Shown here: in pieces, positions 9,384 to 63,296 of the stretch
Layout: each line of letters begins with the position of its first letter
Position numbering within the stretch: position 1 is the first letter of the stretch
Notes under the pieces: model-generated
What the model saw: the letters and a program-made list of their open reading frames with translations, nothing else
Database searches by the model: none
What the model was told of the DNA's origin: nothing
Source of the DNA: Medicago truncatula
Taxonomy: Eukaryota > Streptophyta > Magnoliopsida > Fabales > Fabaceae
Assembly (NCBI RefSeq): GCF_003473485.1
Contig: NC_053044.1
Span: forward strand, 26,409,591 to 26,473,590
DNA: 64,000 nt
Direction of reading: 5' to 3'
Translations under genes and position numbers: made by a program

Positions 9384-10553
9384 TCAATGCAACCCGACCC
9401 ATTCTGGAAGTGGCCAGAACAACTTGGAATAACCAGGAAAATCAGACAAAGGCGAAATCTTATCTGTCTGCAAGCAATAAACAGAATCCGCAAGCCTGTT
9501 ATTAGAATAAGGACAAGGATCATCCCTAAATATCACACAATTCCCATTTCCCACACCCAACTCCGAAGCGGAAGCAGAAAAAACACCATCTTCCCCCCAA
9601 AACAAAACCCTATCCCCCAAATTTCTCACCTCAACCCACTTCTTCTCTTTCTCATCAAGGTTAAACACTTGAAATCTCACATCTCCAATCTCATAAAAGG
9701 CAAAAACATTAAAAAAACAATTTTCAACACTATTCACATATTTATGAACTAGCAACAACTCCCCATTACTATCTACTAATAATTTCTTATCTCCCCCAAA
9801 CACACCCACAGACTCTGCAACCAAATCCAAACCTAAATCCGGTCCTACCGCAACAGTCCGACCGCTGAAATCAACCGCAATAGGCCGTCCTTTGAAAAGA
9901 CAGACGTCGCTGTAAGGCGACGACAGCTCCTCAGGCATTATTATCGTCCAGTGCTCATCCCCGGATCGGAAAATGGCGAGTTTCCCGGAAACATTAATAG
10001 TGAGAAGAGCATAACTATGTAAAGTGCGGTAAACAAGAACCTTCTTCATGAAGTCGACAGAAAAGTAGTCGGAAGGGAAGTTACCAATGACGAACTCATC
10101 GCCGAGATGAATGATGTGATATTCTTTGAAATCGATGAGTTGAGGGAGTTGAAGATAGAGTTGGTAGTCAAGTGAGAGAGGGTACCAGAGACGAGTTTTA
10201 TCACGTGAGTCTGGTCCGATTTTGATTAACCAAGGGGGGTGTAGGGTTTGATTGGGTGGTGTGATTAGTAAGATAGATCGTTTGGAGAGAGGGAAGGTGT
10301 TAGTGTTGGAAGTGTTGTTGGAAGGAAATGGGAAATTGGAAGGTAAATCAAGGAGAGGTTTTTTGGGAATGGAAGAGTGCCATGATGAACAAACGGAACG
10401 AAAGCGGAGTTGGTATAATTCGCTGTCGAGCTTTTCGGAAATGAGTTGTAAGAGATCCTTTGGAAGTTTAGACCAGTCTGGTGCCATCAATGGAGTAGCT
10501 GAAGGGTGCTGTTGATTCATTTTCTTCCTCTGGTTTTGGTGGTGTGACTCCAT
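9384..10553 (-). CDS. F-box/DUF295 protein (SKIP23-like)
   Basis: Single-exon gene for 389 residues, intact. The F-box is at about residues 26-66 (DWSKLPKDLLQLISEKL, then LRFRSVCSSWHSSIPKK). The C-terminal half is the DUF295 beta-propeller-like region, with VFAFYEIGDVRFQVFNLDEK, RVLFWGEDGVFSAS and the typical ending FRDDPCPYSNNRLADSVYCL. Proteins of this type (Arabidopsis SKIP23 group) are thought to be SCF ligase adaptors; the substrate cannot be read from sequence. The start chosen is the first ATG of the open frame; an ATG at residue 12 is an alternative. The protein is unrelated beyond the F-box to the FBA family elsewhere in the window. The 250 bases upstream contain a GA-rich stretch typical of plant leaders. 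Confidence 0.9.
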   Translation of the reverse strand: MESHHQNQRKKMNQQHPSATPLMAPDWSKLPKDLLQLISEKLDSELYQLRFRSVCSSWHSSIPKKPLLDLPSNFPFPSNNTSNTNTFPLSKRSILLITPPNQTLHPPWLIKIGPDSRDKTRLWYPLSLDYQLYLQLPQLIDFKEYHIIHLGDEFVIGNFPSDYFSVDFMKKVLVYRTLHSYALLTINVSGKLAIFRSGDEHWTIIMPEELSSPYSDVCLFKGRPIAVDFSGRTVAVGPDLGLDLVAESVGVFGGDKKLLVDSNGELLLVHKYVNSVENCFFNVFAFYEIGDVRFQVFNLDEKEKKWVEVRNLGDRVLFWGEDGVFSASASELGVGNGNCVIFRDDPCPYSNNRLADSVYCLQTDKISPLSDFPGYSKLFWPLPEWVGLH

Positions 10554-26680: not shown

Positions 26681-26869
26681 ATTCCTTATAGATTTGATTA
26701 TTTATAATTAAATTTATACAATCAATCATATCCATAGGTCCACACATTAAACAAAACGACATATACTAATTATTTTTGCTAATCCAGAACAAGCCTTTAA
26801 ATCCAACCTGCTTCCTGCCCCAACTTCTTTACTAATTATTTTTGCTGAGCATAATTGATAAGTTCCCGA

Positions 26870-27255
26870 TCATCCATGACCAGGAGCATAATTGTGGCCG
26901 TGTGCTAAATCATCAGTAACATAACGGAAGCTTCCATCTAAATTAAAAACAAAAGGAAAAAAAAAAAAAAAACTTCAAAAAAAACGTTAATGGAGTGGAA
27001 TGAATTAGTAATAGTAATGCATAAATTTAGAAAGAAAATAAAAATAATGAAATAAACTATTCAAGAACTGATTGAACAATGATGGGCTCATAAGTTATAC
27101 TAAATTATCTTTGTAAACTCACATATACATATATGGATGCAAGGTCACTTACGTGCTTTACGATTCCAGAAGTGCCTTGCTGTTGCCAATTTTATTGAAA
27201 AGAGAAGCATAAATAGCAAAGATAGATTCAAGATAACCTTTTTAAAATAAGCCAT
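26870..27255 (-). CDS. Small secreted peptide gene, two exons, 56 residues
   Basis: Exon 1 is 27255-27153 and exon 2 is 26937-26870, with a 215-base intron. The donor is C|GTAAGT and the acceptor aatttag follows a long T-run. Exon 1 encodes MAYFKKVILNLSLLFMLLFS and then IKLATA, a textbook signal peptide with cleavage likely after residue 26. Exon 2 completes a mature part of about 30 residues rich in His, Gly and Tyr, starting RHFWNRKAHGSF and ending HGHNYAPGHG. There are no cysteines, so it is not a defensin or NCR peptide. It could be a secreted signalling peptide precursor or a His-rich apoplastic peptide. It matches no family I can name. Without splicing the frame stops after 36 residues. 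A TATA box lies upstream at 27319-27328. Confidence 0.65.
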
Positions 27256-27318
27256 CTTTAACCAAAAATTGTAGAAGCTAGAGCATATATTCGTGAAGTG
27301 TGTTTGGAATGGATGGAA

Positions 27319-27328
27319 ATATATATAG
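27319..27328 (-). promoter_or_regulatory. TATA box of the small secreted peptide gene
   Basis: Minus-strand TCTATATATATTTCC about 65-75 bases before the ATG, leaving a leader of roughly 35-45 bases. A CT-rich tract lies just upstream (ga repeat at 27339-27354 on plus). Confidence 0.55.
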
Positions 27329-30300
27329 ACCTAGCTCTAGAGAGAGAGAGAGAATCGCCCTCTAAAAATAACTTATGAAGACCTCATAATAGTTCACCTT
27401 ATTACTAAATCCAATTTTATTAATTGAGTTAAAAGACCATGCATTGATAATATTATAAAACTTTATTACGTCCTCAGCTAAGTGTGGTTGGGGCTTGATT
27501 TTGATAATTTAAAAGATATATTCCTATCGGTCTTATTTATAAGAAACATTTGACTTTTTTAATTTATTATATAAATGATGTATTTGGTCTATATTTTAGA
27601 CAAGATACATCAGTTACTCAATGAATCTAAAAATCAATTTTTTCTTATAAATATGACCGTATTTCAAATTCCACCTGAGACATAAGTCATTAGTGTCACT
27701 GTTATTAAAACAATTTCTCCTTCTTCTAATTTTTTTAATAAAAAAAACTTAGAAATAAAAATTAAAACAGAATAGTATAGATTTATGTAAGGTCAAAGTT
27801 ATCATACTACATAATTCTCTATTTCTCACGTTGGTTGACACTCTTAACTTCTTAGTAGGCAATTGTCAAAGGAAATTTCCTTCCGCAATACATTAAAGTA
27901 ATTGTCAATGACTTTTGAAAGTATAGAAATTTAAAAGAATGACTTTTGAAAGTATAATAATAAAAAAACAATTTTGATGCTCCACACTAGTTAACTATCG
28001 TTGAATTTTTTTTTTAATTGTGTTGGTATACATCGGTAGTTAACTGCTGTCGGTCAAATCCAATGATAATTAACTACCGCTGTGGAAAAAACGTCATTTC
28101 CGTGTGTTTTTAGGAAGTTTTGTATGTCATGAAAGCAACTTTCAAGCTAATATGATATTGCAAAATAGAGGAAAAAACTATAGACAATCTAGAACCTTTA
28201 ATTATTATTAAACGACAGGGTGAATTTCATGTCGCGTAAGGCGTAATCGCCTAACTGCTTGATGCTTATGCAGTGACTTTGAACCGTCTATATAAGTACC
28301 CATCCTCTCTACAAAACCTACACACCCTCATTCTAAAATACATCAAAGTTCCTTAAGTTCTCACTAACATGGACGTTGGAGTGTTTTTCTAGGTAAAACA
28401 CTCCGCACTAGTGAAGGACAATATGATACGATCGTGCAACACATGTTTGATCAATTCATAATGGTGGTTTTGAAATTAACTTACACCAATCACATTAATA
28501 TTTATCCTCTTTTTAAAAGGGATTGAACATTTTAATACCCATGTTTCAAAGAAAAATTCTTTACGTGTCCAACATAGTCACATTCCTAATTTTGTTATTG
28601 TTGATATAATAGTCATAGTGCTCACTAAAGTAGACAAACTTATATTTAAGTGTATGGTGAGTGGACCACTAGCATCAATCATTTATAGGATATATTAATA
28701 TAATATACAACCATTTAGATTTGTGATTTGTAAAAAATATAAATAAAATCCCACTGTTTATATACACAGGCTTCTGATGAACTTTTAACTTCCAAGTGCT
28801 TTCTCTTTTTGGGTGAGAAATAAGGCAAGGACAACTGATGATATTTATCGAGAAAATTCAAACCACTTCTTACATTCTAATATTTGCATTTATATATTAG
28901 TTAAAAAAGTATAGTCAAAGTAAATTTTGTAAAAATGCAACATGTATTGCAACATTTTGCTATACTCATTGAACATATTTTAACACTCATCACCATTTTT
29001 ATGTTAATAACTGAAAATGTGGCATAGATTGATGCTAAGGTTTTGAACTACATTAAAAACAAATTTGGAGATATCGTGTTTATAGAAGTAGTGACATTTG
29101 ATGTGGAATGAGTATGGGTAGTGTTATCTCGCTTGATCATGGCCCGTTCGACAAAATTAGAAAAGGTTAAAGCGTCTCGAAAATGCTTGTAATCGAAGCA
29201 GAGGATGAGTTGTGAGAGAAAGAGTGGTTTCCATCTCTCTGAGAGAATGCTTGTGACGGCTGTGTCTTTGGTGGGAAGACAGGAGAGAATGTGATGAAGA
29301 AGTGAATCTGGAAAATTGCTGATTTTGTCTTCTTCTTCTTGAATTGAAAAGGCGCAGCGGCCATGACATTGCGGTGGCCGATGGGAAAATGAAAAAAGCC
29401 AAGTTTTTTCTGTGTTTTCTTATCCCATTCCCATATATACACACAGCTCAAGTGTTATCTTCGATGACTTGTAACAACAACGAAACCAAAAACAAAAATA
29501 TCTTCTTTTATATTTTTGAAAGAAATCTTTTTGCGATTTTAATTGAAAGATAATAAAAATTTAACTTTCAATATGTGTTTCTGATCATAACATCGTCCGA
29601 AAGATTCACTTTGCAACGCTTCTTAGGTAATGACAGCCAACTTTGATACCATTTGATAAACACTCAGGCACTTGGGAAGAACCAAACCGCCTATATATTT
29701 CACCGAATATCCTATACTGTTCGATGCGAAACTTAGGCACCCCATTATACTCAAGCTCCTATCAATACTTTATAGGATTGAATTTTTATGCAAGTCAAGT
29801 CAATTCCCCGTTCCTTGCTTAGTAAGAAGCAAATTAAACAATTCAAACAGCAGTACATCATATTCTTAGAAGTAAAACACAAGCAAATAAAATCGACAAA
29901 TTAAATTAAGCAAATGAATTAATTCAGCAAAGCAGATACAATTGAGAGATAATTAAAGACAAAGTTCGCTATCTAAAATTAACACCAGGACAATGATTCT
30001 GCTAATTAAAATACAGAACAATTGAGTCGTACTTCACATAACAATTCAAGGAAAACAAATAAAAGAAAGGAAGGTGGCACACTTTTGGTTACAGATTCAA
30101 TTGGTCACATATTAGAAATTTCTCTTGACAGGATTAGCTTTGTGGCCTTTCTTAGTTTCAATTTTATTCTAAAAGAAATGCTAAGATATAGATACACACA
30201 TAAATAGATGTATATATCAATGAAACAACATTCAGATCAACCATTATTAACATTCTTGTCACCATACATTGCAATTTATTCTTTTTTGTTTCACTTCAAA

Positions 30301-30696: not shown

Positions 30697-31194
30697 TCAG
30701 AAATAAGGTGATATCAAACTCTCAACATAAACTTCGGAGGTAATGGGACTTTTGTTGTCTTGCGTCAAGGTTTTCTTAAGAGTACCATTTTTGAAATCAT
30801 AAACGGCCAAATATGGCCCTAATGGCGTATAATCTATTAGCACTTGGTCATCCTCATAAATCCATAGTGGCTTGGCATATGGAGATAAAAAAGAATCATT
30901 AATGTCGGGAACACGAAATAATATATTCCTTCATCAACCAAACATTAGATAACTCCAAACTGCGAAAGTGGGATCAGAAATTAGGATATTCAAGGACTAA
31001 CTGAGACATCGAAGTTGTAAGAGGATCTTGACGGGGAGCCTACATAGAATCTCTGAGATCAATTCGAGTGGGAGATCGGGCAGCGGTGGCGGGTCGGAAG
31101 AGATGAAGAGTGAACATAAGAGTAATTTTAGGGTTCCAATCAATTTGGTAGTCACCTGCTGCCTCTTGGTGGTGGTGGTAGTTCTTTCCTTCAT
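30697..31194 (-). pseudogene. F-box/FBA gene copy 2, large internal deletion
   Basis: The start (MKERTTTTTKRQQ) and the F-box (LPDLPLELISEILCRLPVKI, then LLQLRCLS) are present. The sequence then jumps, near 30945-31000, straight to the C-terminal FBA end (FRVP, then KPLWIYEDDQVLIDYTPLG and AVYDFKNGT). About 700 bases of the middle are gone compared with copy 3, and the junction is out of frame. A clear pseudogene; an F-box-only peptide of about 70 residues could at most be made. It lies in unit 1 of the tandem array. Confidence 0.85.
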
Positions 31195-31823
31195 CTGACA
31201 AGAAATGGCGTCGGTTAGGTCACTGTAGCCCTTGCTGTATAATGAAATAGAACCCAATGAAAGAGAATGAATGGAAAAGAAACGAAGATGTAATGAATGA
31301 AAACGAAGGAAACAATTCACAGGTCTTTCAATACATTTTTAAATTCCTTTTATAGACTACAACTAAAAGATGGCAGTCACATGTCCGTCTTTTCGACGCG
31401 TGTAAATTATCAACCAGTATTTTATATGAAATTATCGGCGCGTATAAATTATTTGTGATTTTTAAATTGTAACAAACTTAACATAAACAAATATTTGTTT
31501 ATATTTTTCAATAACAACAATAATTTAATAAATATAAATATTATCTTTTTAATACTTCCAACAATATAACATTAATATAGATTTTTTTTAAAGGGTATAA
31601 TTGAAATTATAAAAAATTAAAATCTCAATCCACTTCATATATAGTATTGTTACTATTGTAGTGGGATATTTCCTATTTTAAAGGAATTTAATTTTTTTAA
31701 TCAAAAATTACATTTTTTTATTAAAGGAAAATAGTTTAAATGTAGGATAAAATAGGTAATGAAAAAGTCAGCTCAAACTCATGTATTTTCAACCTATTTT
31801 CTTTATATATATCAAATTTTTAA
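31195..31823. other. 5' flank of F-box copy 2
   Basis: AT-rich, no gene. The leader resembles that of the other copies. Confidence 0.45.
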
Positions 31824-35319: not shown

Positions 35320-36513
35320 TTAGAAACAAGGTGATATCAGACTCTCACTACAAACTTCATAGGTCATCGAACCATTGAAGTCTTGCATCAAGGGTTTCTT
35401 AAAAGTACCATTTTTGAAGTCATAAACGGCCAAATTTGTTCTCCTCCATGACGCATAATCGATTAGCACTTGGCCATTGTTAGAAATCCATAGTGGCTTG
35501 ACATATGAGTAATAGATAAGACCTTTCTTTTCAGGAATACGAAACAATTTAATCCAAGACTCTTCATTTCCATATTCTTTCATTAGCCAAACACTATAAA
35601 CCCTAGGACTACATGCAAGGATACACAAACAATCCCTCAAAACACCCAAGTTCACCTTATGCACATATTCCCCTCCATAATTAGGCTGCAAAAGTCTTCT
35701 ATACTACTCAATCACCAAATCAAAAGAAACAACATTATCATTCTTACATATCCAATTAAGCGTGCCACTCACAAATTTGAGTGATTCACAAACACGTGGA
35801 AGAGGTAACTCCCCATGAATCATTCTCCATGAATTAGTACCCAAAGTATGAACCATTCCTTGAGTTTTGAAACCCTCATTACCACAATAATAGGAAAAAA
35901 CAGCAACCACCTTGTAAACATCATTCACATGATCGTAGCCAAAGCCATATTTAACAAAACCACATTCTCCTTGAATTTTAAAAGAAGGCAATATTTTGGA
36001 TTTTCTAATGGAAGGGTTCCACAAAATGACATTGCTTTGTTTAACAATATTGGAGTCTTTCTTATCCAAACATAGGATTCCATTGCAAGAGCCAACGATA
36101 TTATTGTATAGTGGATCAAAAGGATAGTGTAGTTGGGTCGGTTTAACTGTTACAGAGTTAAAAATGGAGCGAAGCGGGTGAAAAATGGAGTGAAGCCGGT
36201 AAAAGATTAGCGTTGACTTCATATCATAAGTATCATCAAAGTAGGTTAAGATGAGGTTGCGGCGGGTGATTGATAAGCGAAGGTGTTTCTTTGCGAAATT
36301 GGGATCAGAGATTAGGGTATTGAAGGACTTACTGAGACATCGAAGTTGTAGGAGGAGCTTGACAGGAAGTCTGCATAGAATCTCTGCCACCAATTCGAGC
36401 GGGAGATCCGGCAGCCGCGATGGGTGGAAAGAGTTGAAGAGTGATCTAAGAGTTCCCATCAATTTGGTCGTCGGATGCCGCCTCTTGGTCGTCGTGGTGG
36501 TTGTTTCCTTCAT
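35320..36513 (-). pseudogene. F-box/FBA gene copy 3, one in-frame TAG
   Basis: The least damaged copy: 397 codons without frameshift, broken only by one TAG at codon 270 (35704-35706), after FDLVIE. Downstream the frame stays open to the normal end SLISPCF. The F-box is at about residues 31-75 (LPDLPLELVAEILCRLPVKL, then LLQLRCLSKSFNTLISDPNF); the FBA domain includes YGFGYDHVNDVYKVVAVF, MVHTLGTNSWRMI and SVWLMKEYGNEESW. Copy 4 has a serine codon (TCG) at the stop position. As it stands the product would be a 269-residue F-box protein with two-thirds of the FBA domain. Full-length production would need stop readthrough, for which nothing in the sequence argues specially. Confidence 0.9.
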
Positions 36514-39201: not shown

Positions 39202-40411
39202 TTAGAAACACGGTGATATCAGACTCTCAATACAAACTTCAAAGGTAATCGAACCAATGAAGTCTTGTATCAAGGGTTTCTTAAAAGTACCATTTTTGAA
39301 GTCGTAAACGGCCAAATTTGTTATCCCCTGTGACGCATAATCAATTAGCACATGGCCATTATTAGAAATCCATATAGTGGGTTGGCATATGAGTAATGGA
39401 AAGGACCATTCCTTTAAGGAACACGAAACAATTTAGTCCAAGACTCTACGTTTCCATATTCTTTCATCAGCCAAACACTAGAAAAACCGGGACTACATGC
39501 AATGTACACAAACAGCCCCTTGAAACACCCAAATTCACCTTATCCAAATATTCCCCTCCATAATTAGGCAGCAAAAGTCTTCTATACGACTCAATCACCA
39601 AATCAAAGAAAACAACGCTGTGATTACGATTATCCTTACATAACCAATTAAGCGCGCCACTCACATATATGAGTGATTCACAAGAACATGGAAGAGGTAA
39701 CTCCCATTGAATTGTTCTCCATGAATTAGTACCCAAAGTATGAACCATGCCTTGAGTTTTGAAAACCTCATTACAACAATAATAGGAAAAAACAGCAACG
39801 ATCTTGTAAACATCCTTCACATGATCGTAGCCAAAGCCATATTTAACTAAACCACATTCTCCTTGAATTTTAAAAGAAGGCAATATTTTGAATTTTCCAA
39901 CAGAAGGGTTCCACAAAATGACATCGCTTTGTTCAACCATTTCGAAGTCATTCTTATCCAAACATAGGATTCCATTGCAAGAGCCAACGATAATACTGTA
40001 TAGTGGGTCAAAAAGATAGTGTAGTTGGGTGGGTTTAACCGTTACAGAGTTAAAAATGGAGCGACTTCGGTGAAAAATGGAGTGAAGCCGGTAAAAGACT
40101 AGTGTTGGCTTCCTATCAATAGTATCATCAAAGTAGGTTAAGATGAGGTTGCGGCTGGTGGTTGATAAGCGAAGGTGTTTCTTAGCGAAATTGGGATCAG
40201 AAATCAGGTTATTGAAGGACTTACTAAGGCATCGAAGTTGTAGGAGGAGCTTGACAGGAAGTCTGCATAGAATCTCTGCCACCAATTCGAGCGGGAGATC
40301 CGGCAGCCGCGATGGGTCAGAAGAGTTGAAGAGTGAACGTAAGAGTGATCTTAGGGTTCCGATCAATTTGGTAGTCGGTTGCTGCCTCTTGGCGGTGGCT
40401 GTTTTCTTCAT
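39202..40411 (-). pseudogene. F-box/FBA gene copy 4, frameshifted
   Basis: The first frame codes for 314 residues (39467-40411) and ends VVPVFLVFG. The F-box is at about residues 33-78 (LPDLPLELVAEILCRLPVKL) and most of FBA is present, including VIESYRRLLLPNYGGEYLDK. Relative to copy 3, one base is missing near 39505-39510 (acatt against atcctt), which shifts the end. The lost C-terminus is still recognisable to 39202, with at least one more indel near 39375. The alternative ending nearly equals that of copy 1 although the missing base lies elsewhere. Either a pseudogene or a gene for a slightly shortened protein. Confidence 0.88.
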
Positions 40412-50860: not shown

Positions 50861-53800
50861 ATGTCGATAGACGATCCGTGTTTTGTGGAATGGAAAGAGC
50901 ATTTTGTTTCACAAGAGCGTGGCCATCGTATAGTTCACTATTACCTAAAGGACTCTGCTGGGGAGTCCTTTCTTGCAGTTGTCGGCACTGAGAGGAGTGT
51001 TAGACACATGTGCTATGTTATTGCAGAGGAGTTCTTGGAAATTTGTGGAATGGAAATTCCACCTGGTTTCAAATGGAGATCTAGAAGAGAGGTGGTTGAT
51101 TGGCTGACCTCGATGTTATCAAAGCAGCATCTGGAGGAAGATAGAAGTGGTAAGTCGATGTTTCTTATTTCTACTGATCGAATCAGTTGTCGCCATATAT
51201 AATTATGTTGATCATTGTAGTGTTGTCAAGCGTGAAAAAGAACAGTTTATTCAAATTCTGCTACGCATCAGTGTTATAGTGCGCTGTAGCCTCTATTTGC
51301 CATCATTTTACACTAAATAGTGTATTGTGGAACAATGGTGATTTGTTCAAGTTTTGCGACGCTATAGCACTAAGGCGTAGCGCTATAGCACTTAGTGGGA
51401 TAAGACTTGGTTTTTGTTGCTTGTTGTATAGAACTAAAGCGCCCCTATTGTTGCTATTTAACAACACTGGACCATTGTAGGTTGAACAATAATTTGTAAA
51501 ATAATAATATAAGGATGTGATGGTTTTATCATAAAACTTTTATGTGATCCAATCGAATGATATAGACTTATGAACAACGATATCTGCTTTTGTCTGAAAC
51601 AGCAGCAATATTGATGTGGTTCGATAAATATTTTTGTCATTATATGTAGTAGAAGAGAAGTACATAATACTTAATGTTTAAGTAAATTTATCATTTTTTT
51701 TGGATTTCAAATTACAGTATGGCCTGTTCATAATTTGGCACTAGCTCACAAGATCGCAAATGGCAGTGTCAAAGAAGTTAGTGCACAAATGGTGGATGAC
51801 AAGGTATTTCCCTTTTTGTTTATTTTTCCTTATTCTCACTTTCTCTATTTCCATCTACTGTTTCTGATGAATGTTTTTAACGCATGCATACTCCTCTTTT
51901 TCAGGATATTCCAAAGAGTAACTCCAAATTATCCAATTCAGACATCGTTTGGTCAGGACTTGCGTGGACATGTGGCAAACAACTCAAACATTATCCTGCT
52001 TTTTGCAGAAATGGGATCCAAATTGGGGTAAGAAGCCCTTGAACTAAATATCAAGAGAATTTTAATTGTTTCGTTTTTAAAACAAACCTAATACTTATGT
52101 TGTTTTTTTAATCTCATGTTTACATTTTTCTGATACTCAGATTCAATCCTTTGTTTTTGTCATGGGCAATGGAGAGAACCATTATGTTGCTTATTTAGAG
52201 GATATGTATGAAGATAGGAGGGGACAGAAAAAGGTTAAAGTAAGGTGGTTTCACCACAATCAGGAAGTCAAAGGTGCAATTCCTGTACGAAATACTCACC
52301 CACGGGAGGTTTTCATCACATCATATTCTCAAGTCATCAGTGCAGAGTGTGTTGATGGACCTGCCGCAGTCTTAACTCGGGAACACTTCGAAAAATGCAC
52401 ACCTTATTTTTCCCCCTCTTCAACAGACAGAATACATTTGTGCTTTAGGCAATTAAAAGGCAACAAAGTCAAGCCCTTTGACTTAAGCAAACTGCGTGGC
52501 TACTACACTCAGCCAGCTCTTTCTTCCTTGCGCGTTGATACTATCCACAACACCGAGTCTCACAGCAACAGCCTCACAGGAGAAGATGAAGATTTGGATG
52601 TTGGTGATGATGCAAAGCGGGGAGCCAAGAGGAGTAGAAGTGTTACTAATGGTCGAGAAGGGGTTAGGAAGTTGATTAGGAGTAATCCAATGATGGGATA
52701 CCAAACTTTCCAAGTTGTAAATTATGCAAGGCCGGATAGGAGATTGCTTTCTCTGAAAAAGGTTGATTGTAAGCCTTGGTTTAATCCCACATACAAGGTT
52801 GATGACAAGATAGAGGTACTCTCTCAAGATAGTGGTATCCGAGGCTGCTGGTTCAGGTGTACAATTGTACAGGTAGCTCGGAAACAATTGAAAGTCCAAT
52901 ATGATGATGTTCAAGATGAAGATGGAAGTGGAAATCTTGAGGTACAATCAAACTTTTGAGATATTCTAATTTCCTTTTTTGTCAGTACTTGAGCTATATT
53001 TCAAATTTGCATAAATAATGGGGGTTCCTATTTAAGGTTTTATCTTGATAGAAGGACGGTATAATGCTTTAAAAGCTTTTGCTATGACTGAATCTAGAGA
53101 AAAGCTGAATTCATTGATGGTCTATTTTAAGCAATCTTACTTTGCATTCACAGTTTGATTCCATGACACAATTTTTTGTCCACTTAGTCACGTGGCAGCA
53201 ATTCCAATTGTTGTACTTTTACCAAGGCTTCTCTTATTTTAAGTAATAAATGTTATTTATTCACTGTTTTTTCTGTATGAAAGCATACACTATTCTAGTT
53301 TAAGCTTAATGTGGAATTTAGACATGCTGGACTAATCATTGTTAAAACATTCAACTGAAATATACTATTCTTGGTCTCTAATATTCTTTTAAATGACAAA
53401 GTTTTACTGCATAAAATCTTTTTGTTCGAACTAAATGGACTCTCATGTTGAAATACGCTTGATCATTTCTTTGAAATATTACTAGATATAAATAACAGTA
53501 GATTATTTAGGCCTGTCTTATACAGAGATTTCAGTTTCTTAGTGCAGTACAAGAGATTCATTTTTCAAATGTAGCTGGTAATGGCCGATAGCAACATGTG
53601 TCAGAATGGCGAGTAAAATATGATATGGTTTTTTCCTCTTAATGGAGTTAATATTCCCAATGTAAAACAAAATATTCAAAGAAATGATTGTATAGATTCC
53701 CTTAATGCATAACAATTACTCTGCTTCCTTTTGAATTCAATTTTTTAATCTTGATCTCTATTTTTTAGGAGTGGATCCCTGCTTTTAAGTTGGCCAAGCC

Positions 53801-57107: not shown

Positions 57108-57178
57108 CATTCAAAACATTGTTGAATATTTTCTTAAGTCATCATTCAAAACGTTATCGAATATTTTCTTAAGCCATG
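57108..57178 (+). repeat. Tandem duplication of the 5' leader up to the start codon
   Basis: The unit cattcaaaac.tt.t.gaata + ttttcttaag.cat occurs twice in a row. The second copy ends ccATGG, the start codon; the first ends tcatca and lacks the ATG. Confidence 0.85.
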
Positions 57179-58423
57179 GCTTCGATTCCAAAACTTCTTT
57201 TGCTTCTCACCCTGTTCACATCGTTCATCAACCTTACAACCTCACTACCATGCAACTCGTACACTTTTCCAAATAACCTTAACTTTGCAAGATGCAGTGA
57301 CCTACCCGTTTTAGATTCCTCTCTTTATTGGAACTACAATCCAAAAACTAGTGTTATCGATGTTGCATTCAAGAAAATTAATGTAAAGGATTCTAGTTGG
57401 ATTGCTTGGGCCATAAACCCTAATTCGAATGGCATGATAGGATCGCAAGCTCTAATCGGTCATCGAAACTTTGATGGAAGTTTCAAAGTCTATACTTCAC
57501 AAATAACAAGTTACCAAACTATGTTACAAGAGGGTAACATTAGTCTTCCAGTTTATAATATTTCAGGAATGTACCTAGATGGAAGCATGATGATATTTGC
57601 AAGTTTGGAACTTCCTAAAAACGTCAGTTTGGTTAATCATGTTTGGCAAGAAGGATCAGTTTCTAGTGATGGAAGATTGAGATCTCATGCTTTGACTGGA
57701 GCAAATGTTCAAAGTTTTGGAACTTTGGATTTTCAATCTGGAAATATTATCTCCCATAGTTTTGGTGGAAAATTGATGTCAAAAATCAAACTAAGAATCG
57801 TAAGTAACTTCTTTATTTATTTATTTATTTATTATTATTATTTGTTTGGAATTTTGAATTTTAGTAGTTTATATGATCACTAACACTCCGTCTCTCTAAA
57901 GGTACATGCAATTTTTAATGTTATAAGTTGGGGAACACTAATGCCAATTGGAGTAATAATGGCTCGTCACTTGAAGAGATTTGAAGGACCAACAGGATCA
58001 ACATGGTTTCAATTGCATAGAGCATGTCAATCTATAGCATTATTATTGGGCACTGTTGGTTTTGCCACTGGTTTATATATGGGAAACCAACCAGGAATTC
58101 ATAACACACCACATAAATGTGTTGGAATCACTCTAATGACTTTGGCACTTGTTCAAGTTTTTGTTGCAATTCTTCTTAGACCAAAGAAAGATCACAAGTA
58201 TAGAATATGGTGGAACATTTTTCATTTCTTAGTTGGTTACACAACCATTATCTTAGCTATATGGAACGTCTTCAAAGGCTTTGACATCTTGGGGGGAAAT
58301 ATCATGTTTAAAATTATCTATGCTTGTGTAATTGGATGTTTGGTTTTGATTGGTTTGAGTTTAGAAGTTGTTGCTTGGATTATGTGGCTATGGAACAAGA
58401 AGAGCAAAGAACTTGGAGTATAG
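57176..58423 (+). CDS. DOMON and cytochrome b561 domain protein
   Basis: Two exons, 57176-57799 and 57902-58423, GT-AG intron, phase 0, 381 residues, full length for the family. A signal peptide at residues 1-23 (LLLLLTLFTSFINLTTS) precedes a DOMON domain at about 45-165 (WIAWAINPNSNGMIGSQAL, SGMYLDGSMMIFASLELP). Exon 2 is almost exactly the cytochrome b561 core with five membrane helices at about 209-370 and conserved histidines in HAIFNVISWGTLMPIG, FQLHRACQ, NTPHKCVGI and NIFHFLVGY, the likely haem ligands. Members are plasma-membrane electron carriers, the DOMON part facing the apoplast; ascorbate is the usual donor of b561 cores. Plant relatives are often called auxin-responsive. The start lies in a strong ccATGG context. 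Confidence 0.93.
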
Positions 58424-61545: not shown

Positions 61546-63296
61546 CTACATGGGTAAGAAGACGGCAGTAGGACTTCCAGGGGATGGAGGATTGTCTCTT
61601 AGTAGAGATGCATGAGATCCAGCTTTAGCCAAAGAATCAGCATCAGCTGCAGATAAAATTTCCACATCGACCACCTCTTTTGAACCTATCTGTCTCTTGA
61701 TCGAGTCCAAGTTTTCCCGAAGAACCTCAATTTCACCAAATGGCAGTCTCAAATTCAGGGCTTGAGCCCCGAGTGCAATCGCCTCATCCTTCTTAAACCT
61801 TAAGAAAGGCATACATAACTTTTGAGTTCGTTTAAAATCAGAAGATTGACCTACAGAACTCTGTTGTAAAGCCGCCATAATTTCTGAATCTGGAGCAAAA
61901 GTTCGAGAATCTTCGTTAAAGCTGTTCTGGAGAATCTTAAGGCACTCAGCTTTCCAACCATCAAATTGTTCATTTACATATACCAAGCATGTGAACTTGA
62001 TTTCTGTTGGCACTACAACAGGAGCGCCTTTCTTATTTCCTTTCTTTGAGCCTGAAAGTTGCTTCTGAAGCAACTTCCTTATCAGAACAATAGAATCCTG
62101 TAGATATTTGTTGGCACTCTTTAGTGTAAGGTCAGGAGCATCTGCTGTTGGCCAACCTGCCTTCACCACAAAACCATCCTTCTTCAAAATCTCTCTCCAA
62201 ATAAACTCTGCATAATGCGGACAGATAGGTGCTAGAAGACGTGTCTGCACATCCATAAAACGCCGCACCAAATCACGATTGAACCCACTAGCCCCACATG
62301 ACAATCTATACTCATCCCTAGCAGCCTGAAGATCATAAAAGCCAGTCTTTAGTGCTTCTCGAAACATATAGTTGGAGTAATTTTGCTCAGTTGTTTTGAC
62401 GGCAATGTTAATTTCATTGGCAAACACACGATCAGCATAGATAGACGGTGGACCTGTTCTCATAGAAGATTCTGCATCCAGAGTCTCTTCAAACCATGTA
62501 AGCTCTTTGGTGAGCCTGAGAATTGCCGCATTTGCTGTCTCAAACACAAAATTGGCATCATCAACACCATCACCAGCATCAGCCAAAGAGAAGCGTGTGG
62601 CATCAGCAGAAAACTCCTCAATTGCCTGACGAATAGTTCTGAAATTTCCAGTAGACTTGGACATTTTCTCAGAATTGAGCATTAAGTGGCCATTGCATCT
62701 ATACCCACGAGGCCAGTGACGCTTGGGGAAAATTGCAGTGTGGTTGTAAAGGCAAAAAGTAAGATGATTTTGGATGAGATCTTTACCAGACACCCGAAGA
62801 TCAAATGGATACCAGTACTCAAACTCAAGCTTCATTTTTTCTAAAACCGATGATGAAATATCAGTGGACTTGGGGAAAGGTCCACCACAGAAAATATAAT
62901 CCCAGACATCATCAGTCAGTTGCTGAGGTTTGATAGATGATTCACTGGTTCCATACATGTCATTGTTCTGCAAATAGTGTGCAATAGTGTAATAAGCCAT
63001 GTAAATGGTCGAGTCCGATAGAGACTCGACTAGGAACTGTTCATCCCATGGTATACGTGTGCCAAGACCAAATGAACGTGAGCAAGCCCACTGATTCAAC
63101 CAGCCCAAAGTATGCTCAAAACCATGTCGCGTCTCATCATGATACAGGCTCATGTTAGACAGGCATTCATCAGTTAACTGCTTCCATTCTGACTCCCCAT
63201 ATGTAATGTACCACTGATCTGTCAGAGCTACAACACATTCATCACCAGATCTAGACATCACCCTCTTCTCTGGCTCACTGTACACAATTGCCTCAC
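61546..63296 (-). CDS. Cytosolic leucyl-tRNA synthetase, C-terminal exon
   Basis: One open exon of 583 codons to a natural-looking C-terminus (SPGSPTAVFLPM). It begins after an acceptor (tttacactttcag) with GEAIVYSEPEKRVMSRSGDE, inside the class I catalytic core. Conserved blocks are ETRHGFEHTLGWLNQWACSR, GLGTRIPWDEQFLVESLSDS, the KMSKS loop SEKMSKSTGNFRTIRQAIEE (about 62630-62670) and DATRFSLADAGDGVDDANF, followed by the anticodon-binding and C-terminal regions. Plant cytosolic enzymes have about 1,080 residues, so this is the last 54%; the HIGH motif and editing domain must lie on earlier exons. None of them is visible in the 700 bases before the window end, where an exon on the other strand is found instead. 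Either a long intron or a 5'-truncated copy. Confidence 0.9.

Follow-up and report, generated by a model that had tools for sequence, protein, structure and literature searches.

A duplicated gene of Medicago truncatula that very probably encodes a small secreted peptide precursor, and the resemblance of its family to soybean GmPep914 and GmPep890

The window analyzed here is a 64,000-nt stretch of Medicago truncatula DNA (C3:26409591-26473590; positions given below without a contig are those of the window). Related F-box frames lie at 594-1783, 30997-31320, 35320-36513, and 39467-40411, on both strands and some of them split by frame breaks; an F-box Pfam match was obtained for 35704-36513, and the other three frames are assigned to F-box by resemblance. 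The window also carries an F-box/KIB1-4 beta-propeller gene (PF03478) at 9384-10553, an exon with BAH and Agenet domains at 52162-52959, a secreted-looking frame with a DUF568 match at 57176-57883, and a class I tRNA synthetase frame, apparently of the cytosolic leucine type (Anticodon_1, RBD_LARS1), at 61546-63285. No tRNA was detected by ARAGORN in the window. The gene under study is read from the minus strand and consists of the following parts.

27950-26681, minus strand: segment common to C3:4392517-4394270, comprising gene, promoter, and 3′ flank
27327-27320, minus strand: TATA-like box TATATATA, 72 nt upstream of the ATG
27255-27153, minus strand: exon 1 coding part, 34 codons plus 1 nt, signal peptide and RHFWNRKA
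27255-27178, minus strand: predicted signal peptide, residues 1-26 (MAYFKKVILNLSLLFMLLFSIKLATA), hydrophobic core and A-T-A↓R site
27152-26938, minus strand: intron, 215 nt, GTAAGT...TTTTTAATTTAG, phase 1
26937-26870, minus strand: exon 2 coding part including the TGA, (H)GSFRYVTDDLAHGHNYAPGHG
26911-26888, minus strand: motif DLAHGHNY, corresponding to D-x-P-R-x-H-[NH]-Y in the paralogues and to soybean DLPRGGNY (excerpt of PMC7730307)

A two-exon gene at 27255-26870 of the minus strand had been proposed in the first-pass annotation, and all its coordinates, splice sites, and phase agree with the sequence. The ATG lies at 27255, the donor C/GTAAGT at 27153/27152, the acceptor TTTAG/A at 26938/26937, and the TGA ends at 26870. 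The spliced frame amounts to 171 nt (56 codons and the TGA); without splicing it ends two codons beyond the donor. By exon, the predicted protein reads MAYFKKVILNLSLLFMLLFSIKLATARHFWNRKA-HGSFRYVTDDLAHGHNYAPGHG, and translation of the spliced product gives MAYFKKVILNLSLLFMLLFSIKLATA↓RHFWNRKAHGSFRYVTDDLAHGHNYAPGHG. Judging from the 12-residue core of the leader (mean hydropathy 2.66) and its A-T-A↓R site, maturation would leave RHFWNRKAHGSFRYVTDDLAHGHNYAPGHG, a basic peptide (pI 9.7) of 30 residues with 5 His and no Cys. Signal peptide cleavage is likely after residue 26, so that eight mature residues (RHFWNRKA) would still be encoded in exon 1; the earlier view that the signal peptide ends exactly before the donor has to be corrected accordingly. 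The TATA box reported before was recovered as the TATA-like element listed above, and the nearest paralogue has a matching one 71 nt upstream of its ATG. Pfam searches with the 56-residue peptide (E up to 10) revealed no family, and those with four relatives (E up to 0.1) gave no match.

A search of the genome (430 Mb, 42 contigs) with the window peptide returned seven exon-sized matches at E up to 10, of which two are the window itself and the remaining five fall in four other C3 genes. With two further queries, the number of modelled C3 paralogues rose to five in total. Each has a sequence match to exon 1 of the window gene at the position given below, which is that of the ATG, and splicing of all six C3 models was inferred from DNA.

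C3:4393201, minus strand: 4.393-Mb protein, MAYSKKLILSLSLLFMLLFSIKLATAKHFWNRKA-HGSFLYVTDDVAHGHNYVPLHG
C3:4526042, minus strand: 4.526-Mb protein, ...ARVPLWKIKPHHHKEA-YERLLNSVSVNDRPRFHNYGVPPPPAPIS
C3:4591074, minus strand: 4.591-Mb protein, ...ARLPLWKIEPHHKI-NGRLLYIVDDVPRGHHYKSPPPPRPSPPPPPPRP
C3:4593468, minus strand: 4.593-Mb protein, ...ARVPLWISEPHLKA-HGRLLLTADDPRDHHYFHHNP
near C3:4604934 (exon 1 match at 4604934), minus strand: 4.605-Mb protein, ...ARVPSWKIEPHQEEA-YGRLLYIVNDRPRSHNYIVVPPPPPPY

In all six C3 models a leader exon 1 ends in phase 1, the intron (129-694 nt) starts with GTAAGT, and exon 2 is open and carries a motif in which D, H, and Y are invariant. An A-x-A↓[RK] cleavage site is found in five of the six and is absent from the 4.591-Mb gene. 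When the mature part alone served as query, the only matches were the window and its nearest copy, and it is also only for these two that the 140 nt upstream of the six genes align well. A tblastn scan (E up to 5) covering the window together with C3:4.388-4.598 Mb and C3:4.6025-4.6064 Mb detected no further two-exon place; C3 outside these ranges was covered by the whole-genome searches only. A match at C3:2.73 Mb (L015, E 0.148) has no leader and peptide exon structure and was taken as chance.

The previously suggested gene for a secreted, Cys-free, His/Gly-rich peptide of 56 residues is thus backed by five paralogues with identical exon structure. AT-rich DNA lets the eye find short two-exon frames, and the window gene might on that account be nothing but chance open frames. 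This is extremely improbable, because all five paralogues, which lie on this chromosome too, likewise have a leader exon and an open exon 2 separated by a phase-1 GTAAGT intron. In a rough neutral simulation restricted to substitutions, all six frames stayed open in 67 of 50000 runs, a figure to be taken as an order of magnitude since the present-day frames served as start, the tree was simple, and the changes were rounded (for the window pair 25, then 6 and 5; for each other gene 20). The exon structure and the paralogy, both read in the DNA, indicate that the window locus is very probably a genuine plant gene that has been duplicated and encodes the precursor of a small secreted peptide.

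The nearest copy (C3:4393201, minus strand) lies 22 Mb away and keeps the ATG, donor, acceptor, phase, and stop. Comparison of window 26681-27950 with C3:4392517-4394270 by blastn gave four pieces with 82-89% identity and unmatched stretches between them, which indicates that promoter and 3′ flank were duplicated along with the gene; a genome DNA search with 26681-27407 also found this segment. Over the 171 coding nt the two copies differ by 11 substitutions and no indels, the mismatches being 4/103 in exon 1 and 7/68 in exon 2, gap-free. The intron (215 vs. 326 nt) shows 29 mismatches in 196 aligned positions in addition to 149 gap columns, and the two 300-nt flanks show 169/556 mismatches (upstream 81/274, downstream 88/282). 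Substitutions are thus fewer in the exons than in the intron (Fisher p 0.012) and in the flanks (p 4e-12). Nine of the exon differences are nonsynonymous and two synonymous (dN 0.073, dS 0.054), and across the 15 pairs of the six C3 genes dN/dS ranges from about 0.5 to 1.9. In several pairs the ratio approaches or exceeds 1, which argues against strong purifying selection and shows no residue constraint. In the C3 family, frame and splicing are kept while the residues evolve fast.

These comparisons bear on whether, within a family that is itself real, the window gene is a duplicate of C3:4393201 in decay, with expression or function lost. The excess of nonsynonymous differences would suit such decay, as would the distance of the window gene from the other C3 members and its place in a diverged pair, with A-H for P-R in the motif. 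Yet start, splice sites, phase, and stop are intact, the TATA-like box is retained, and coding indels are lacking where intron and flanks have many, so we consider decay quite unlikely.

In four C3 paralogues the motif reads DVPRGHHY, DRPRFHNY, DRPRSHNY, or DDPRDHHY vs. DLAHGHNY in the window gene, which suggests that the window tail is an altered form of D-x-P-R-x-H-[NH]-Y. The ending had at first been assigned to no known family. The question is now partly resolved. The terminal D[HL]PRGGNY of the soybean peptides GmPep914 and GmPep890 is absent and the window protein has DLAHGHNY followed by APGHG; through the paralogues, the tail appears as a modified version of a motif that resembles these peptides. 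GmPep914 and GmPep890 are defence elicitor octapeptides from GmPROPEP914 and GmPROPEP890, reportedly described by Yamaguchi and co-workers in 2011. They alkalinize the medium of cell cultures and induce defence genes as well as their own precursor gene. Their sequences are given as DHPRGGNY and DLPRGGNY, respectively, in an excerpt of PMC7730307, and according to an excerpt of PMC4621407 they are C-terminal octapeptides cut from 52-residue precursors. GmPROPEP914 and GmPROPEP890 are described in part of PMC6547358 as having no obvious signal sequence, with apoplast release and perception called unclear, and the excerpted text of PMC13157962 refers to lineage-specific soybean peptides whose receptors are still unidentified. 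One study found no protection of Arabidopsis from fungus by GmPep914/890 (excerpt of PMC7225342), so their activity may be restricted to legumes.

The resemblance was evaluated by a shuffle test in which 12 exon peptides were compared with the two soybean octapeptides, using 100000 self-shuffles. The score of the window peptide against DLPRGGNY was reached in 190 of the 100000 shuffles; for the 4.591-Mb and 4.605-Mb peptides the counts were 15 and 67, for the peptide of a C4 gene described below (L041) the count was 2, and the weakest of the 12 (L050) had 4263. Against DHPRGGNY the score of the window peptide was reached by 8376 of 100000 shuffles and is not significant alone. Given this weak direct match, the window gene is connected to GmPep914 through its paralogues. 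Their DVPRGHHY, DRPRSHNY, and DRPRFHNY are closer to the soybean motif, yet internal, and the DFPRGHNY of L041 is terminal.

Genome-wide, the strict pattern D-x-P-[RS]-G-x-N-Y occurs at two sites and its reversed control also at two, that is, with no enrichment; one of the two sites (L042, DVPSGFNY) was taken as chance, and the other is the end of L041. The looser D-x-P-[RS]-x-H-[NH]-Y occurs at 16 sites vs. 2 for the reversed control pattern, namely in four C3 paralogues, at five places in C4:14.28-14.68 Mb (L041 included), and at seven places elsewhere. Among these seven, L045, L046, and L047 were rejected, as the 0.75-1.2 kb read at each revealed no leader exon paired with a peptide exon, and the sites at C1:30.45, C3:54.13, and C5:2.16 Mb, with near-identical letters, look like one repeat. 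The pattern D-x-A-[RHQ]-G-H-N-Y is found at four sites (the window, the 4.393-Mb copy, and two C4 genes) vs. none for the control.

In the precursor-like C4 gene L041/L043 (C4:14384458-14385652), DFPRGHNY directly precedes the stop of an open frame that follows an acceptor, and a suitable exon 1 lies about 1 kb upstream. The predicted protein, MVSFLDFFLSPTLATKVRRLVSRTDKPNPKPQPSKS-PLTIADRDFPRGHNY, has 51 residues and no evident leader, and the splice model has a phase-1 GTAAGT intron. A genome search with L041 gave two matches, which are its own two exons, and no second copy. Being leader-less, of 51 residues, and with a terminal DFPRGHNY, it fits the published description of GmPROPEP914/890 (excerpts of PMC4621407 and PMC6547358) and is a candidate counterpart of these soybean genes. 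With 56 residues in the window gene and 51 in L041, precursor length is in both about that of the soybean precursors.

L041 (C4:14.384-14.386 Mb) sits between members of a leader family at 14.364 and 14.660 Mb. One C4 gene of this family (L049) was read whole: its leader MASKKCSLILVVLFICLLSFSSKALA↓RNIPN... is followed by two serial peptide exons, the first with DNARGHNY and the second ending DRPRCHNYL before the stop (inferred splice). Three further C4 peptide exons end DKPRCHHYF, DDPRCHHYL, and DNPRCHNYL, each followed by a stop, so that all four C4 tails read end DxPRCHxY[L/F]; they account for the four C4 sites of the looser pattern other than L041. Exon 1 of L049 has 11 genome matches at E up to 10, nine at C4:14.19-14.68 Mb and one at C8:32.195 Mb; a C5 match (E 2.26) is weak and was left out of the count. 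Each of the ten counted C4/C8 leader matches is followed, 0.08-1.3 kb downstream, by a match to a peptide exon; eight of these came from one search and two from another. With E values between 0.06 and 3.99, six of those eight are credible only because a matching exon 1 precedes them. At C4:14363889 and 14194060 the peptide match spans residues 1-27 of 37 only, and the tail motif of these two therefore lies outside its view. When the C3 and C4 peptide exons were compared as profiles, only the motif aligned (9 columns, probability 83, E 8.8e-6), and with whole C3 precursors 10 columns aligned (probability 64). As the aligned motif is short, the case for homology between the C3 and C4 genes depends on intron phase and leader as well as on the motif.

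It could be argued that the family is real and secreted but not of the GmPep914 type; its members might, for instance, be His-rich apoplastic peptides that bind metals or act as antimicrobials, and the D..R.HNY tail would then be convergent. The basic, His-containing mature part of the window gene, the proline-rich ends of three of the six C3 proteins, and the weak match of the window motif alone to DHPRGGNY are consistent with this. What is conserved, however, is the short D-x-[PA]-[RH]-x-H-[NH]-Y, while His content elsewhere varies; the motif occurs twice in L049, on separate predicted exons, and a DFPRGHNY precursor lies within the C4 cluster. On balance we regard a convergent tail as unlikely. 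The best reading is that the C3 genes are a secreted and rapidly evolving branch among the precursors of GmPep914-like signals, and it is rather probable that the window gene is a diverged member of these, a duplicated secreted precursor of a GmPep914/890-like signal.

If this reading is right, exon 1, which is leader-like in the DNA, would encode the secretion signal and exon 2, joined through the phase-1 intron, the presumed signal peptide region. Once the gene is transcribed and spliced, its precursor would enter the secretory pathway and shed residues 1-26, and further extracellular cutting could yield a short peptide around TDDLAHGHNY(APGHG). By analogy with soybean GmPep914/890, a receptor kinase on neighbouring cells might sense the peptide, with a possible role in defence or in root or nodule signalling. 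As the window copy and its nearest paralogue have diverged (A-H for P-R, extra C-terminal residues), their receptor or potency may differ. A more speculative scenario, which we put forward tentatively, is that a GmPep914-type alarm peptide gave rise to a family of secreted hormones with about 16 genes (6 on C3, 9 on C4, and 1 on C8), next to one cytosolic-type precursor within the C4 cluster. Exchange of first exons across the shared phase-1 intron would then have switched the release route and kept the peptide exon, and the window gene would represent a diverged branch, perhaps with another receptor or acting as a competitor.

Among the matches listed, the open-access literature searched holds no description of this Medicago family, although the original 2011 soybean paper may list legume homologues. 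The strings PRCHHY, PRCHNY, and PRGHNY were not found in that literature, and HGHNY occurred there only in two papers that, by their titles, are apparently unrelated. The C3 and C4 genes may be listed in the Medicago secreted-peptide database as unnamed small secreted peptides. If the proposed relationship is true, the GmPep914-type signal extends beyond soybean, and a family in a second legume, mostly with leaders and near a leader-less precursor, would offer a genetic system for studying release, processing, and receptor.

CEP, PIP, IDA, and CLE precursors have a signal peptide, a short variable middle, and a conserved C-terminal peptide and belong to small gene families, and the window gene is like them in all these respects; none of their C-terminal motifs was seen by eye in the window translation, and Pfam gave 0 matches. 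NCR and other cysteine-rich peptides likewise form a legume gene family with a leader exon followed by a peptide exon, but they carry conserved cysteines and the window peptide has 0 Cys in 56 residues. With GmPep914/890 the window gene shares a short Cys-free precursor (56 vs. 52 residues) and a tail of the D-x-[PA]-[RH]-G-x-N-Y type, and the Medicago genome holds a DFPRGHNY-ending precursor in a cluster of leader-exon genes. It differs from them in having a leader, where GmPROPEP914/890 are described, in the excerpted source cited above, as having no obvious one, and in its motif, with A-H for P-R and H for the second G, followed by APGHG. Because a leader is present and the octapeptide is altered and not terminal, the window gene is better described as one that would work like GmPROPEP914 than as being GmPROPEP914 itself.
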